From assembly GCA_902566705.1 (NCBI GenBank), contig CACFJT010000003.1:59286-123285 (forward strand): a DNA stretch of 64,000 bases, written 5' to 3'. The notes under the pieces are model-generated. The model ran no database searches and was not told the DNA's origin. It was given only the letters and a program-made list of their open reading frames with translations. This document shows positions 3,759-19,214 of this stretch, in pieces. This stretch comes from an uncultured Pelagibacteraceae bacterium (GTDB lineage: Bacteria; Pseudomonadota; Alphaproteobacteria; Pelagibacterales; Pelagibacteraceae). A program made the translations under genes and the position numbers. Within the stretch, counting starts at the first letter, position 1; each line of letters opens with the position of its first letter.

Positions 3759-5368
3759 TGAACAAAGTAATTAAGTTTTTAGATAGTACTTTTTTAGACT
3801 TGGGTCGACAATTTAAGTGGACTTACTTACCACCATTAATGGTATATATGGCTGCAGGTATATCTGGTTTAACAGGTATAGTTGGTACGTTCTTTGTAAA
3901 AGATTATTTAAATTTATCTGCTGCATTTCTTGCAGGCCTAGGTTTTTGGGCAGGTATTCCTTGGGCATTAAAAATGCCACTAGGTCATCTAGTAGACCTT
4001 ATTTGGGAAAGAAAAAATTATATGGTTTACTTTGGTGCGTCTCTAATAGCTTTAAGTTTACTTATTATGTATGGGCTAATTGTTCATACAGAAGAAATGT
4101 CTCAAGTTTTTTCTGTAGAGACTTGGTTTGTGATTAGTGTGATTTTGGCTCCCGTTGGTTATGTAGTTCAGGATGTAGTCGCTGATGCTATGACTGTCGA
4201 AGCTGTTCCTTTAGTTGATGAAACTGGAAATAATTATTCCAAAGATCAAATAAAAATAATGCATACAACAATGCAAACTCTTGGACGGTTCGCAATTATT
4301 GGTGGTACTGTCCTTGTAGCGTTAGTTAATGTAATTTTGTTTAGAGACGTAGAGAGTTTAGAGCAAACTGAAAAGATAAATTTATATGGAACTATTTATA
4401 TCTACGCACTTGTAATACCTTTAGTTTCTATCTTAGGTGTAATTTTAGCTAATTATTTAAGATATAAAAAAATACAAACTTTAAAATCTAAAGGTCTAGA
4501 ATATAAAGATGAAAGAGGTAATGAGAAAACAAAAATAAACTGGTGGATATTAGGAGGAAGTTTAGTTTTTGTTATTTTCACATTGTCCATTGGGTCCTTT
4601 AAAGTACCTTTTGCTCAAGAAATCGTATTTTTAGGTTCAGTAGTAATTATTTTGTTTTTAATGTTTAAGCTTATAAAGGAATTACCTCAGGAATTAAGGT
4701 TAACTATAGTAGGTACAGCAGTTATTATTTTTATATTTAGAGCTATGCCTGGACCTGGACCAGGATTGACATGGTTTGAAATTGATGAGCTCGGATTTAA
4801 TGAGCAATTTTTTTCTATATTATCATTACTTGCATCAATTTTAACATTAGCTGGTATTGTTTTGTTAAGACCATTTATGGCAAATAATTCAATTGCTAAA
4901 ATTATTGTTGTTTTAAGTATTGCAGGAGCAATTTTATTTTTACCAAGTGTTGGAATGTATTATGGTTTTCATAATTGGACAGCTTCATTAACAGGTGGAG
5001 TAGTTGATGCAAAGTTCATCGCATTAATAAACACAGCTCTTGAATCTCCTCTGGGACAAGTCTCAATGATTCCTCTTTTAGCATGGATAGCAAAAAATGC
5101 TCCAGCACATTTAAAAGCAACTTTTTTTGCAGTTTTTGCATCCTTTACAAATCTTGCATTATCAGCAAGTGCATTAGGAACTAAGTATTTAAATGAAATT
5201 TTTACGGTTACAAGAGAAGTGAAAGATAAAGTTTCAGGTGAAATTCAAACTACAGCAGATTATTCTGAACTTGGGATTTTATTAATTGTTGTGACACTTT
5301 TGACATTAATTCTTCCAATATTATTTGTAATTATTATCAATAATAGTAAATACAAAACATCAGAGTAA
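3758..5368 (+). CDS. Multi-pass BT1/MFS-type transporter
   Basis: The 536-residue protein has about twelve or more hydrophobic helices. The N-terminal part (PPLMVYMAAGISGLTGIVGTF, then PWALKMPLGHLVDL) resembles the folate-biopterin BT1 branch of the major facilitator superfamily, with AmpG-like MFS carriers as the alternative. A soluble loop near residues 240-265 separates the two halves, and a long external loop precedes the last helices. The substrate cannot be read from sequence; a pterin, a nucleoside-like compound or an osmolyte is possible. It ends the plus-strand run that starts with dddP, joined to the CoA-binding gene by TAATG. Confidence 0.65.
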   Translation: MNKVIKFLDSTFLDLGRQFKWTYLPPLMVYMAAGISGLTGIVGTFFVKDYLNLSAAFLAGLGFWAGIPWALKMPLGHLVDLIWERKNYMVYFGASLIALSLLIMYGLIVHTEEMSQVFSVETWFVISVILAPVGYVVQDVVADAMTVEAVPLVDETGNNYSKDQIKIMHTTMQTLGRFAIIGGTVLVALVNVILFRDVESLEQTEKINLYGTIYIYALVIPLVSILGVILANYLRYKKIQTLKSKGLEYKDERGNEKTKINWWILGGSLVFVIFTLSIGSFKVPFAQEIVFLGSVVIILFLMFKLIKELPQELRLTIVGTAVIIFIFRAMPGPGPGLTWFEIDELGFNEQFFSILSLLASILTLAGIVLLRPFMANNSIAKIIVVLSIAGAILFLPSVGMYYGFHNWTASLTGGVVDAKFIALINTALESPLGQVSMIPLLAWIAKNAPAHLKATFFAVFASFTNLALSASALGTKYLNEIFTVTREVKDKVSGEIQTTADYSELGILLIVVTLLTLILPILFVIIINNSKYKTSE

Positions 5369-15108: not shown

Positions 15109-15164
15109 GAATTTAGCAAAAACATATCCAAATAATACTTGTAAATTGCGACATTATATGCGAT

Positions 15165-15201
15165 TGATAATCATTCGCATTGAGAATAATTCTCATTCGC
15201 A
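15165..15201 (+). promoter_or_regulatory. Tandem Fur-box operators upstream of the ferric iron transporter
   Basis: At 15181-15195 TGAGAAT-A-ATTCTCA is a perfect 7-1-7 inverted repeat, differing from the classic Fur 7-1-7 core TGATAAT-N-ATTATCA at one symmetric position. At 15165-15179 TGATAAT-C-ATTCGCA has a perfect left half and a 5/7 right half. The half ATTCGCA is repeated at 15195-15201. The sites end about 30 bases before the binding-protein start at 15230, where a Fur-type repressor would block transcription when iron is plentiful. Whether the organism uses Fur itself or another iron regulator is not visible here. Confidence 0.8.
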
Positions 15202-15229
15202 AACAATTTAGGGTAAAGATAAGGACAAA

Positions 15230-16258
15230 ATGAAAAAAGTAACACTTTTGGCATTATTTGCATCTTTAATAGTTTCATCTTTTGTAACTGCTAATGAGGT
15301 AAATATTTTCAATGCCAGACACTATAAAGCTGATAACGAACTTTATAGCAAATTTACTGAAAAAACTGGAATTAAAGTAAATTTAATAAACGGAAAAGCT
15401 GGTGCATTAGAAAAAAGAATTATAGAGGAGGGTGCTGACTCTTTAGCAGATCTTTATATTACTGCTGACGCAGGTAGATGTGGAGCATTTAAGGCTAAAG
15501 GAATGACACAAAGTGGTCTAGTGTCTCCAACAATTAAATCATCAGTTCCAAAAAGTTTTAGAACTACACACTGGGTTGGAGTAGCTAAAAGAGCTAGAAT
15601 AATTTATTACTCACCAGAGAGAGTAACTGGAGCTGAATTATCAGGACTTACCTACGAAGGCTTAGCTGATCCAAAATGGAAAGGCAGATTAGTAATTAGA
15701 AAATCAAGTAACATTTACAATAAGTCACTGGTAGCTTCATTAATTGAAAATAATGGCAAGAAGTCCGCTGCAGAATGGTCTAAAGGAGTGGTTGCAAATA
15801 TGGCAAGAACACCAAAAGGAAATGATAGAGCCCAAATTATGGCAGTTGCAGCCGGAGAAGCTGATATTGCTGTAGCTAATACATACTACTTAGCACTTAT
15901 GTTATCTGGTAACAAAGGAGCAGAACAACAAGCTGCTGCAAAAAAAGTCAAAGCATTTTTTCCTAATCAAAATGACAGAGGAACACATATGAATATTAGT
16001 TGTGCAGCTTTAGTTAAAGGAGCACCTAATAAAGCAAATGCAATTGCACTTGTAGATTTCTTATTATCACCAGAAGCTCAAGAACATTTTACAAACAATA
16101 CTTTTGAGTTTCCAATGATAGCTGGTGTATCTCCAAATCCATTGGTAGTAAATAATTTAGGATTAGATTTTAAACAAGATCTAACAACTAAAGTTTCAAG
16201 CTACGGAAAAAATCAAGCAGCAGCATTAGAGGTAATGACAGCGGCTGGGTGGAAGTAA
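15230..16258 (+). CDS. fbpA: Ferric iron ABC transporter, periplasmic binding protein (FbpA/FutA type)
   Basis: Residues 1-21 are a signal peptide cut after VTA. The mature protein starts NEVNIFNARHY, whose His and Tyr are the first iron ligands in the FutA group. The later ANTYYLAL carries the tyrosine pair that holds ferric iron. The 342-residue length is normal. It feeds the permease at 16535 and the ATPase at 18153. A purine-rich AAGGA precedes its ATG, and the Fur-type boxes lie just upstream. Confidence 0.93.
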   Translation: MKKVTLLALFASLIVSSFVTANEVNIFNARHYKADNELYSKFTEKTGIKVNLINGKAGALEKRIIEEGADSLADLYITADAGRCGAFKAKGMTQSGLVSPTIKSSVPKSFRTTHWVGVAKRARIIYYSPERVTGAELSGLTYEGLADPKWKGRLVIRKSSNIYNKSLVASLIENNGKKSAAEWSKGVVANMARTPKGNDRAQIMAVAAGEADIAVANTYYLALMLSGNKGAEQQAAAKKVKAFFPNQNDRGTHMNISCAALVKGAPNKANAIALVDFLLSPEAQEHFTNNTFEFPMIAGVSPNPLVVNNLGLDFKQDLTTKVSSYGKNQAAALEVMTAAGWK

Positions 16259-16265
16259 GGAACAA

Positions 16266-16460
16266 GTGAAAAAAAATTTATTTGATTTTAATTTAAGTAT
16301 TTCTCAAAATAACAGTAGTTCACTCGAAGGTCAGATAACTTGTGAACCGTGTTTGTCTGAGTGTGAAAAAATTAAAAAAAAAATAAATAATAGAAAATTA
16401 TCAGAGATCAAAAATAATGATATTGATCGTGTCATTAATGTTTTTGGTTTAAAAGATTAA
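16266..16460 (+). CDS. Small CxxC protein inside the iron-uptake operon
   Basis: The 64-residue soluble product starts with GTG at 16266, seven bases after the binding-protein stop, with TAAGGA placed as a ribosome site. It has no signal peptide or membrane helix. Its only cysteines are C26, C29 and C33 in ITCEPCLSEC, a compact metal-binding or redox arrangement, followed by a lysine-rich helix and an acidic-basic tail. It lies before the hairpin at 16470 and so in the same transcript segment as the abundant binding protein. I recognise no family. A role in iron or Fe-S handling is inference from the operon. Confidence 0.65.
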   Translation: MKKNLFDFNLSISQNNSSSLEGQITCEPCLSECEKIKKKINNRKLSEIKNNDIDRVINVFGLKD

Positions 16461-16469
16461 TTTTCAAAA

Positions 16470-16518
16470 AGTGAACATAATTCAATAGTTATTTACCCTA
16501 CTATTGATTATGTTCACT
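16470..16518 (+). terminator. Long inverted repeat between iron binding-protein segment and permease
   Basis: The left arm 16470-16489 and right arm 16500-16518 pair over 19 base pairs with a single bulged T, around a ten-base loop. No T-run follows, so it is more likely a transcript-stabilising or attenuating hairpin than a simple terminator. It ends 16 bases before the permease ATG. Confidence 0.65.
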
Positions 16519-16534
16519 GAAACAAAAGGGTAAA

Positions 16535-18163
16535 ATGTATTTTAATAAAATAAATATTTGGTTTTTGTTTTCTTTGTTGGTATCAATTTTTGTTGCTATA
16601 CCAATCGTAACCGTATTTACAAGTTTTTTTGAGGATACATCGAATTATTATCAAATTCTAAAAGATACTTTTTTATTTGAATATATTTTTAATTCATTAA
16701 TTTTGCTGGTTGGTGTTTTAGTTTTAACCTTTTTTATTGGAACTAGTACAGCTTATCTAGTCTCTTTTTATAAATTCCCTTTAAGTAATTTTTTTAAATG
16801 GGCTTTGATATTATCTTTTGCAGTACCTCCATACATTTATGCTTATTCTTTAACAGCTTTCTTTGAAAATTATGGAACTTTATATTCGATATTGAAAAAT
16901 GTATTCGGAGAAGCAAATTATAACCAAAGCATCCCAAAGTTTGATGGTTTAATAGGCGCTGTACTTTCGCTATCTTTTTCACTATTTGCTTATGTTTATA
17001 TTCTCTCAAGAGCATCATTTCAGTATCAATCTCAAAATCTAATTGATTTAGGTAGAAATTTAGGATTTTCTAAAATGAAGTCCTTTTATTCTTTAATATT
17101 GCCAGCAGCCAGACCTGCAATCGTTGCAGGTCTTTCTTTGGTAGCGATGGAAACTTTAGCTGAATTTGGAGCAGTTGATTTCTTTTCTATAAATACCTTA
17201 ACTACGGGTATTTACAATTCTTGGATCACTTTTGATGATTTAGCTTTCTCAAACAGGATATCTTTTTTTCTTCTTTTATTCATTTTTGCAGTATTCATTT
17301 TAGAAAATTTATCTAGAAAAAAGGCAAGGTACCATTCAAGTACAAAAGGTGGATTTAAACAAAAAGAAAAAATTCAACTTTCAGGAGCAAAAGCATTTTA
17401 TGCATTTTCATTTTGTTTTGTTGTTTTCTTTTTAAGTTTTTTATTTCCACTAAGTCAAATGTTATATTGGACTTTAAAGTTTCCAGAAAATCTTTTCGAT
17501 ATACCGGTCATTACTTTGACATTAAATACACTTTACTTGGTGTTATTATCGAGTTTAGTTTTAATAACTTTTTCTTTAATTTCTAATTATGGAAATAGAG
17601 TTTCAAAAAATAATACCTTAAATGCTTTGTCTACTTTATCTATCTCAGGTTATGCTATTCCAGGAGTAATCTTAGCTGTAGCTTTTATAACTTTTATAGC
17701 CTGGTTTGATGACAACGTAGTTAAAGCGCTAGGCTTTTTATCTGTTAAAAAAATATTTATTGGTTCTATACTTGGTTTAGTTCTTGTTTATTTTATTAGG
17801 TTCTATTCTTTAGCTTTTAATGGAATAAAATCTGGATACGAAAAAATAAATATTTCAGTTGATGAAAGTTCATACCTACTTGGTTATTCTAAAAAAAAGA
17901 CATTCATGAATATTCATATACCCTTCTTAAGAAAATCTCTGTTATTTGTAGGAATTCTTATTTCCTTAGAAATAATAAGAGAACTACCGATCACCTTGAT
18001 TTTAAGACCTTTTAATTTTGAAACATTCGCTACTACTGCATATATATCTGCCTCCGAAGACTTGCTAGAAGCTGCAGCCGTACCTTCATTATTTTTAATT
18101 CTTATTGCAAGTTTTTTTATAATGCTTACATCTAAATATATTTTGAGGGATAATGAGCAATAG
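16535..18163 (+). CDS. fbpB: Ferric iron ABC transporter, double permease (FbpB type)
   Basis: The 542-residue inner-membrane protein is a fused pair of binding-protein-dependent permease domains with about twelve helices. Each half has an EAA-type ATPase-contact loop: IDLGRNLGFSKMKSFYSLILP near residue 170, and VDESSYLLGYSKKKTFMNIHIP near residue 445. The fused double permease is typical of iron (III) systems of the Fbp/Sfu/Afu group. It follows the hairpin and a GGGTAAA ribosome site, and its last 11 bases overlap the ATPase gene. Confidence 0.92.
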   Translation: MYFNKINIWFLFSLLVSIFVAIPIVTVFTSFFEDTSNYYQILKDTFLFEYIFNSLILLVGVLVLTFFIGTSTAYLVSFYKFPLSNFFKWALILSFAVPPYIYAYSLTAFFENYGTLYSILKNVFGEANYNQSIPKFDGLIGAVLSLSFSLFAYVYILSRASFQYQSQNLIDLGRNLGFSKMKSFYSLILPAARPAIVAGLSLVAMETLAEFGAVDFFSINTLTTGIYNSWITFDDLAFSNRISFFLLLFIFAVFILENLSRKKARYHSSTKGGFKQKEKIQLSGAKAFYAFSFCFVVFFLSFLFPLSQMLYWTLKFPENLFDIPVITLTLNTLYLVLLSSLVLITFSLISNYGNRVSKNNTLNALSTLSISGYAIPGVILAVAFITFIAWFDDNVVKALGFLSVKKIFIGSILGLVLVYFIRFYSLAFNGIKSGYEKINISVDESSYLLGYSKKKTFMNIHIPFLRKSLLFVGILISLEIIRELPITLILRPFNFETFATTAYISASEDLLEAAAVPSLFLILIASFFIMLTSKYILRDNEQ

Positions 18164-19214
18164 CTATTTAGAGATAAAAAATGTTGATTTTACAATAAGT
18201 GGGAAGACTAAAGTCAAGAACGCATCTTTCGTAATTGAAAACGAGGGAGATACTTTATGTATTTTAGGCCCATCAGGAATTGGAAAGACAACAATACTAA
18301 GAACTATTGCTGGTTTAGAAAAAATTGAAAAAGGTACAATTAAACTAAACGGTAAAATATTATCTTCCAAAGATCAAAATGTAGAGCCTGAGGATCGAAA
18401 TATATCCTTAGCTTTTCAAGATAATAGTTTGTTTCCACATTACACAGTTGAAAAAAATATTTTATTAGGTGCTGAAAGAAATCAGGGTAAAAGAAAAAAA
18501 AAACTTAGCTTTAAGGAGATAGTAGATTTTCTTCATATAGAACAAATTTTAACAAAATACCCGCATGAAATTAGTGCTGGAGAAGCTCAAAGAGCTTCAC
18601 TTGCTAGATCACTTTTAACACAACCTGATCTCTTGCTTTTAGATGAGCCATTATCAAATGTTGATCAAAGTTTTAAAGAGGAGATACAAGTAAAATTAAA
18701 AAAAATATTAAGTAAATTGAAGATTACAACAATTATAGTGACTCACGACTCATACGAAGCTTTTTACCTTGGACACAAATGTGCAATTGTATTAGATGGT
18801 CAAATTAAACAGTTTGACGATCCTTATAATGTTTATCATTTTCCAAACTCTGAAGAAGTAGTTAATTTTTTAAATAGAGGTATTTTAATTCCTGCAAAAG
18901 TTACAGGAGAAAATTCATTAGAAAACGAAGACCTAGGAACAATTAAAGGCAATTTCATTAAGCATTATCCAAAAGGATCAAATGTAAAATTATTATTACA
19001 GCCAGAAGATCTTGAGCATGATGATAAGAGCAATCTAAAATTAGAGGTGGTTGATAGAAAATTTAGAGGTACAAACTTTATTTATACTTTAAAAACGAAC
19101 AGCGATTTACTTATACCAGTTTTTGTTCATTCCCATCATGAACACCAACACGAAGCAGATGAGAAGTTTGGAATAAAAAGACCGATTCATATTGATCACA
19201 TAGTTTGTTTTTAA
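18153..19214 (+). CDS. fbpC: Ferric iron ABC transporter, ATP-binding protein (FbpC type)
   Basis: The 353-residue protein has Walker A GPSGIGKTT near residue 36, a Q-loop in LAFQDN, and a signature region reading ISAGEAQRASLARSLL rather than the usual LSGGQ. Walker B LLLLDEPLSNVD and the switch His in IVTHD follow. A C-terminal TOBE-like regulatory domain ends with a histidine-rich SHHEHQHEADE stretch, which could sense metal. It overlaps the permease by 11 bases. The ISAGE variant of the signature is unusual but known in iron transporters. Confidence 0.93.
   Translation: MSNSYLEIKNVDFTISGKTKVKNASFVIENEGDTLCILGPSGIGKTTILRTIAGLEKIEKGTIKLNGKILSSKDQNVEPEDRNISLAFQDNSLFPHYTVEKNILLGAERNQGKRKKKLSFKEIVDFLHIEQILTKYPHEISAGEAQRASLARSLLTQPDLLLLDEPLSNVDQSFKEEIQVKLKKILSKLKITTIIVTHDSYEAFYLGHKCAIVLDGQIKQFDDPYNVYHFPNSEEVVNFLNRGILIPAKVTGENSLENEDLGTIKGNFIKHYPKGSNVKLLLQPEDLEHDDKSNLKLEVVDRKFRGTNFIYTLKTNSDLLIPVFVHSHHEHQHEADEKFGIKRPIHIDHIVCF

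Follow-up and report, generated by a model that had tools for sequence, protein, structure and literature searches.

Results

A small gene and an RNA hairpin within an iron-importer operon

The window, the whole stretch of 64,000 nucleotides that was analysed, carries the three genes of an iron importer, with a small open reading frame (ORF) and an RNA hairpin between the first and the second. The features of the locus are these:

15164 to 15202, strand not assigned: Fur-box-like array TTGATAATCATTCGCATTGAGAATAATTCTCATTCGCAA, read directly, upstream of sfuC
15230 to 16258, plus strand: sfuC, periplasmic iron-binding protein (solute-binding protein, SBP), Pfam SBP_bac_6 4.5e-18, orthologue of SAR11_1238
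16256 to 16261, plus strand: Shine-Dalgarno sequence (SD) of the small ORF, TAAGGA, which overlaps the stop codon of sfuC
16266 to 16460, plus strand: gene of the small CxPC protein (64 aa), which starts with GTG
16341 to 16343, 16350 to 16352 and 16362 to 16364: codons of C26, C29 and C33 of the small ORF
16470 to 16518, plus strand: hairpin of 19 bp with a 10-nt loop, MFE -21.7 kcal/mol, z -3.94 against shuffles, position-homologue of the potC RNA
16492 to 16499, plus strand: hairpin-loop segment UUUACCCU, complementary to the permease SD
16527 to 16534, plus strand: permease SD segment AGGGUAAA, directly before the ATG at 16535, proposed partner of the loop in a tight geometry
16535 to 18163, plus strand: sfuB, two-fold permease, Pfam BPD_transp_1 1.1e-10
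18153 to 19214, plus strand: sfuA, ATPase, Pfam ABC_tran 5.7e-30

GATAAT hexamers are Fur-box units (PMC2864753). Repeats of this hexamer precede nearly every SBP gene that we compared, and GATAATCATTCGCATTGAGAATAATTCTCATTCGCAA is kept across the loci compared. The repeats that mark a Fur-regulated iron-uptake operon were found at the window operon, and the Fur-box-like repeats behind the Fur-boxed operon of a preliminary description of this DNA are real. The same three genes, in the same order and with Fur-type boxes, make up the SfuABC/FbpABC ferric importer of Ca. Pelagibacter ubique HTCC1062 (PMC2864753). In that strain sfuC and sfuB are separated by 71 nt that contain a hairpin, and the small ORF is missing. 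This gap was read in genome G026 (locus L154), whose SBP gene lies at 1180955-1181971 on the minus strand. The published HTCC1062 intergenic region between sfuC (SAR11_1238, minus strand) and SAR11_1239 spans 1181972-1182071 (Meyer et al., PMC2704228). The two sets of coordinates fit exactly, and G026 is therefore very probably HTCC1062.

The small ORF encodes a protein under purifying selection

The small ORF starts 7 bases behind the sfuC stop codon and ends 74 bases before the permease gene. Its product is (V/M)KKNLFDFNLSISQNNSSSLEGQITCEPCLSECEKIKKKINNRKLSEIKNNDIDRVINVFGLKD (64 codons), and NLFDFNLSISQNNSSSLEGQITCEPCLSECEK is a peptide of this CxPC protein. Of 55 close relatives, 51 begin the ORF with GTG and 4 with ATG; the SD is almost invariant, and GTAAGGAA is kept in most. 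An SD that overlaps the sfuC stop codon is the arrangement expected for translational coupling of the small ORF. Across 48 distinct copies dN/dS was about 0.35 (bootstrap 95% 0.21-0.59), with the strongest selection in codons 24-64 (0.29), and the other two forward frames carry stops in all 48. As dN/dS is 0.05 for the SBP and permease genes, selection on the small ORF is clear but weaker than on the transporter. Positions 16266-16460 are a real gene, and its protein is under purifying selection.

The family was searched with a 23-row profile, which matched 176 of 297 genomes sampled from the order (E<=0.001, with E-values down to 1e-31); the SBP was found in 244 of the same genomes (E<=1e-90). 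A search for distant homologues in 240 genomes of the Alphaproteobacteria matched only the window genome and one congener, and no member of the family was found outside Pelagibacteraceae among the genomes sampled. Of 168 ORF matches in the fetched loci, 167 stand directly behind the SBP gene and the last is a fragment at a contig end. There was no credible Pfam or NCBIfam match for the 23 members searched and no match to PDB sequences below E 0.09, in agreement with the preliminary description of an unrecognised 64-codon ORF between the iron-binding protein and the permease. The family is unannotated, and SAR11-specific in the genomes sampled, and the protein is presumably cytoplasmic.

Several side searches were made for further relatives. 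Second matches elsewhere in the genomes, considered as paralogues, were weak (E > 0.03) and mostly inside long ORFs, and were dropped; an exception among them were fragments of the same broken ORF. Viral contigs gave 50 pattern matches to the small protein, and none was confirmed. At locus L187 (genus g4) a divergent ORF, MKNKLNTCKKGCKTCNDDAKDMQNQLQNRDPKELNFEEAKQIFFPL, with three cysteines (CKKGCKTC) lies between the SBP and permease genes and may be a distant relative of the family.

The frame had been expected to be conserved in SAR11. It is kept in Pelagibacteraceae, but on the SBP tree of 82 loci it is missing or disrupted at about ten points, the absent state requiring about 10 changes. 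Remnants in relatives (a one-base frameshift in L073 and L140, a premature stop in L141, a truncated start in L144 and a tail in L145) indicate that these are real losses, and in L142 and L143 only a 14-nt gap is left where the ORF would stand. Because sfuABC is retained through some ten losses or breaks, the small ORF is dispensable for transport. The ORF at positions 1489-1683 of locus L132 (minus strand) resembles a mosaic, its first part like L096 and its last part like L090. This mosaic suggests recombination inside the small ORF, and recombination at the locus makes loss counts on the SBP tree approximate.

Two of the three cysteines are invariant

Every intact copy examined has both C26 and C29 (106 distinct CxxC-bearing peptides); the three peptides that lack CxxC are fragments or a truncated copy. 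The pair nearly always encloses a proline (CEPC, CVPC, CIPC, CSPC, CDPC, CPAC, CPTC and CPQC; also NP, GP and AP). At the third position the 106 peptides have C in 93, A in 7, V in 5 and R in 1. Conservation of C26, C29 and C33, as expected beforehand, therefore held for the first two but not for C33, which 13 of the 106 peptides replace by Val, Ala or Arg: V in L095, L096, L098, L132 and L153, A in genus g4 and L164, and R in L006. Since C33 is replaced in several lineages, a site that needs all three cysteines is not the shared function of the family, and the iron or Fe-S site first proposed for the three cysteines was not borne out in that form. The alignment has two invariant cysteines and no invariant histidine. 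Judged from sequence, the shared CxPC pair would suit dithiol redox chemistry, metal binding by a dimer, or binding of a single metal together with other ligands.

An AlphaFold2 model built from 19 rows had a mean pLDDT of 61.9. Residues 1-25 are predicted to be disordered and to be followed by two helices, one at 27-41 that starts at the CxPC motif immediately behind C26, the other at 50-59; the helical part reaches block-mean pLDDT values of 73-80. A Foldseek search of the model against the PDB returned nothing usable (best E 6.6).

Small cysteine accessory proteins beside metal transporters are an already known kind. FeoC and Bfd are small cytosolic proteins with cysteines, and their genes accompany those for iron transport or storage. 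The window protein resembles them in size, presumed location, cysteine content and iron-gene neighbours. It differs in its cysteine spacing and orphan fold and in having no Pfam or NCBIfam match to such models. A proline within CxxC at the start of a predicted helix also recalls thioredoxin and glutaredoxin, but the window protein is a predicted two-helix piece with neither a thioredoxin fold nor a Pfam match. Profiles of FeoC, Bfd, thioredoxin, glutaredoxin and zinc ribbons (Pfam/NCBIfam) gave no significant match to any of the 23 members.

A peroxiredoxin gene often follows the small ORF

In many lineages, for example at L059, L091, L092, L095, L096, L118 and L120, a peroxiredoxin gene (Redoxin 2.1e-23) separates the small ORF from the permease gene (1775-2320 in L092, 5252-5818 in L059). 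It is present also in L202-L204, and L144 has a remnant only. In the sister family f2 the order is SBP, peroxiredoxin, permease, and the small ORF is missing. The window operon has no peroxiredoxin gene; a distant one (36% identity) lies elsewhere in the genome. Next to an iron importer, a thiol peroxidase would make sense as a guard against reactions between peroxide and iron. This neighbour suggests a thiol or redox theme for the CxPC protein, and is the only contextual hint to its chemistry.

The intercistronic hairpin is a sub-threshold relative of the potC RNA

The hairpin noticed earlier downstream of the small ORF is real. The stop codon of the ORF lies 9 nt ahead of its stem, and 6 stem pairs have changed on both sides among related sequences. 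Positions 16465-16523 align with the potC RNA model (RF01751) over its full length at 30.4 bits (E 0.0034), which is below the gathering threshold of 44. At the same place in sister lineages the model scores above threshold: L092 93.8, L098 89.9, L056 87.2, L074 84.5, L124 73.8, L096 62.3, L049 61.6, L137 58.6, L111 54.2, L103 53.9 and L100 47.6 bits. The potC RNAs of L092, L056, L098 and L074 lie at 1702-1771, 5239-5307, 1700-1771 and 1755-1823, respectively, and that of L092 ends 3 nt upstream of the peroxiredoxin start. The window hairpin is therefore a sub-threshold relative of the potC RNA at the same operon site. It shares with the potC RNA a two-part hairpin with a UUUACCC loop. It differs in that the complementary permease SD GGGUAAA is found in the window clade and was not seen in the potC loci above the cut-off.

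The potC RNA was described as a 'marine only' candidate cis-regulatory RNA with no demonstrated function (Weinberg et al. 2010, PMC2864571). Its context directly behind sfuC and the small ORF in a Fur-boxed operon was not found in the papers searched. A DicF match at 16562-16606 (28.3 bits, cut-off 48) lies inside the permease gene and was taken as chance. A whole-genome RF01751 search of the window's own genome gave only a weak site elsewhere (E 0.2); control genomes also matched, and this search was not used.

The hairpin loop is complementary to the permease SD

In the window clade pairing of the loop UUUACCCU with the SD AGGGUAAA is possible in 98.8% of cells over 11 sequences, with no two-sided change in the set. 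Loop shuffling gave p values of 0.002-0.05 per locus for this complementarity, the loci being related to one another. Automatic scoring based on MFE folds failed on some hairpins (L102 and L156), either missing or misassigning them, and those were read by eye. L102 has a different 10-nt match between loop and SD (ACUUACCCUU/AAGGGUAAGU). In the HTCC1062-like loci (L154, L155 and L195) AUUACCC can pair with GGGUAAU at permease codons 2-3, and in genus g2 loci CCUCCU-type loops face AGGAGG SDs. Loops complementary to the permease SD or start region were observed in L154, L155 and L195 and in L156, L191-L194 and L196. An SD-complementary loop is missing in many lineages, and at bona fide potC loci the SD partner is missing.

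The loop and the SD are complementary, and pairing between them would be sterically tight for a pseudoknot, with linkers of 2-8 nt over stems of 14-21 bp. Such linkers leave too little room for an unstrained pseudoknot, so part of the stem may have to open before the loop can pair with the SD, or the two may not pair in cis at all. Recurrence of the complementarity with different sequences in other lineages suggests that permease translation may be tuned down. The same loop could also pair in the window clade with AGGGUAAAG at window positions 15210-15218 in the sfuC 5' UTR. Since AGGGUAAAG is absent in L102 and L132, which have the loop, we rank this partner below the permease SD.

Discussion

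Our preferred reading, to which we assign a probability of about 0.35, is that the small protein is an accessory cytosolic dithiol protein of the Sfu importer, made in step with SfuC, which would take up or reduce the incoming iron; its chemistry and partners are what we infer. Ribosomes finishing sfuC would go on to translate the small ORF. If so, any release of the operon from Fur repression would also yield the small protein, and more of it than of the permease. The small protein would stay in the cytosol, where the dithiol would bind iron delivered by SfuBA, or reduce it and pass it on, acting alone, as a four-cysteine dimer, or aided by C33 where that residue is present. The hairpin would separate the highly made 5' part of the operon from the permease gene, and in the window clade it probably lowers permease translation through pairing with the SD. 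Against an accessory dithiol protein stand the lack of a homologue of known function, the low mean pLDDT and the blank Foldseek search, and about ten losses or breaks of the gene in lineages that keep sfuABC. The sequence is about as compatible with a protein that binds zinc, or one that binds RNA or another protein. We also know of no established reductase mechanism for a CxPC pair outside the thioredoxin fold.

A regulatory protein, whose cysteines would sense cytosolic iron or redox state and which would tune uptake through the SfuA ATPase or the hairpin RNA, is unlikely in our estimate. The position of the ORF between binding protein and permease, the conserved RNA hairpin that adjoins it, the lysine-rich composition of the protein and its accessory distribution would all agree with such a role. 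However, SD-complementary hairpins occur where the protein is missing (HTCC1062-like and g2 loci), and elsewhere the protein accompanies hairpins whose loops are not complementary to the SD. Thus protein and RNA do not form an obligate pair.

It is likewise improbable that the protein has a structural zinc site, in which CxPC together with C33, or dimerisation, would hold zinc and fold an interaction module, with iron uninvolved. The protein is small, cysteine-paired and mostly helical, which would agree with such a site, and one member weakly matches the NCBIfam YnfU zinc-binding family (0.019), but that match is found in 1 of 23 members and was not repeated, and the invariant residues include only two cysteines and no histidine.

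We give still less credence to a leader-type ORF, whose translation rather than peptide would open or shield the hairpin and so tune the permease. The closeness of the stop codon to the stem and the complementarity of the loop to the permease SD would be expected of a leader; selection on the amino-acid sequence, strongest in codons 24-64, and retention of the cysteines where an SD-complementary loop is missing would not. A chance open frame, as might be suspected of a short ORF that is lost in several lineages of an AT-rich genome, is refuted by profile E-values down to 1e-31, an upper limit of 0.59 on dN/dS, and a conserved start codon and SD.

Its small size and its absence from the model strain HTCC1062 explain why the protein was overlooked. 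Under iron limitation, expression of sfuC, sfuB and sfuA in that strain rises 16- (mRNA), 10- and 5-fold, respectively, and the SfuC protein (SAR11_1238) rises 27-fold (PMC2864753). The published study thus speaks for iron-dependent induction of the three transporter genes. As HTCC1062 has no small ORF, its proteome cannot contain the small protein and is silent on it.

Iron limits growth over large ocean areas, and SAR11 cells make no siderophores (PMC2864753, PMC13271415). Taking the accessory dithiol protein together with the hairpin, we tentatively put forward a joint reading, itself doubtful as a whole, in which the Fur-controlled ferric importer of SAR11 would have gained a cytosolic CxPC iron or redox protein specific to the family, and the orphan potC RNA would be an intercistronic element that sets the SBP and the small protein high and the permease (or peroxiredoxin) low, in several lineages by pairing of loop and SD. 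Tying the potC RNA to the intergenic space of a SAR11 iron operon gives it a concrete genetic context and a checkable mechanism. SAR11 are the ocean's commonest bacteria, and an extra importer component would make the fate of iron past their membrane testable.
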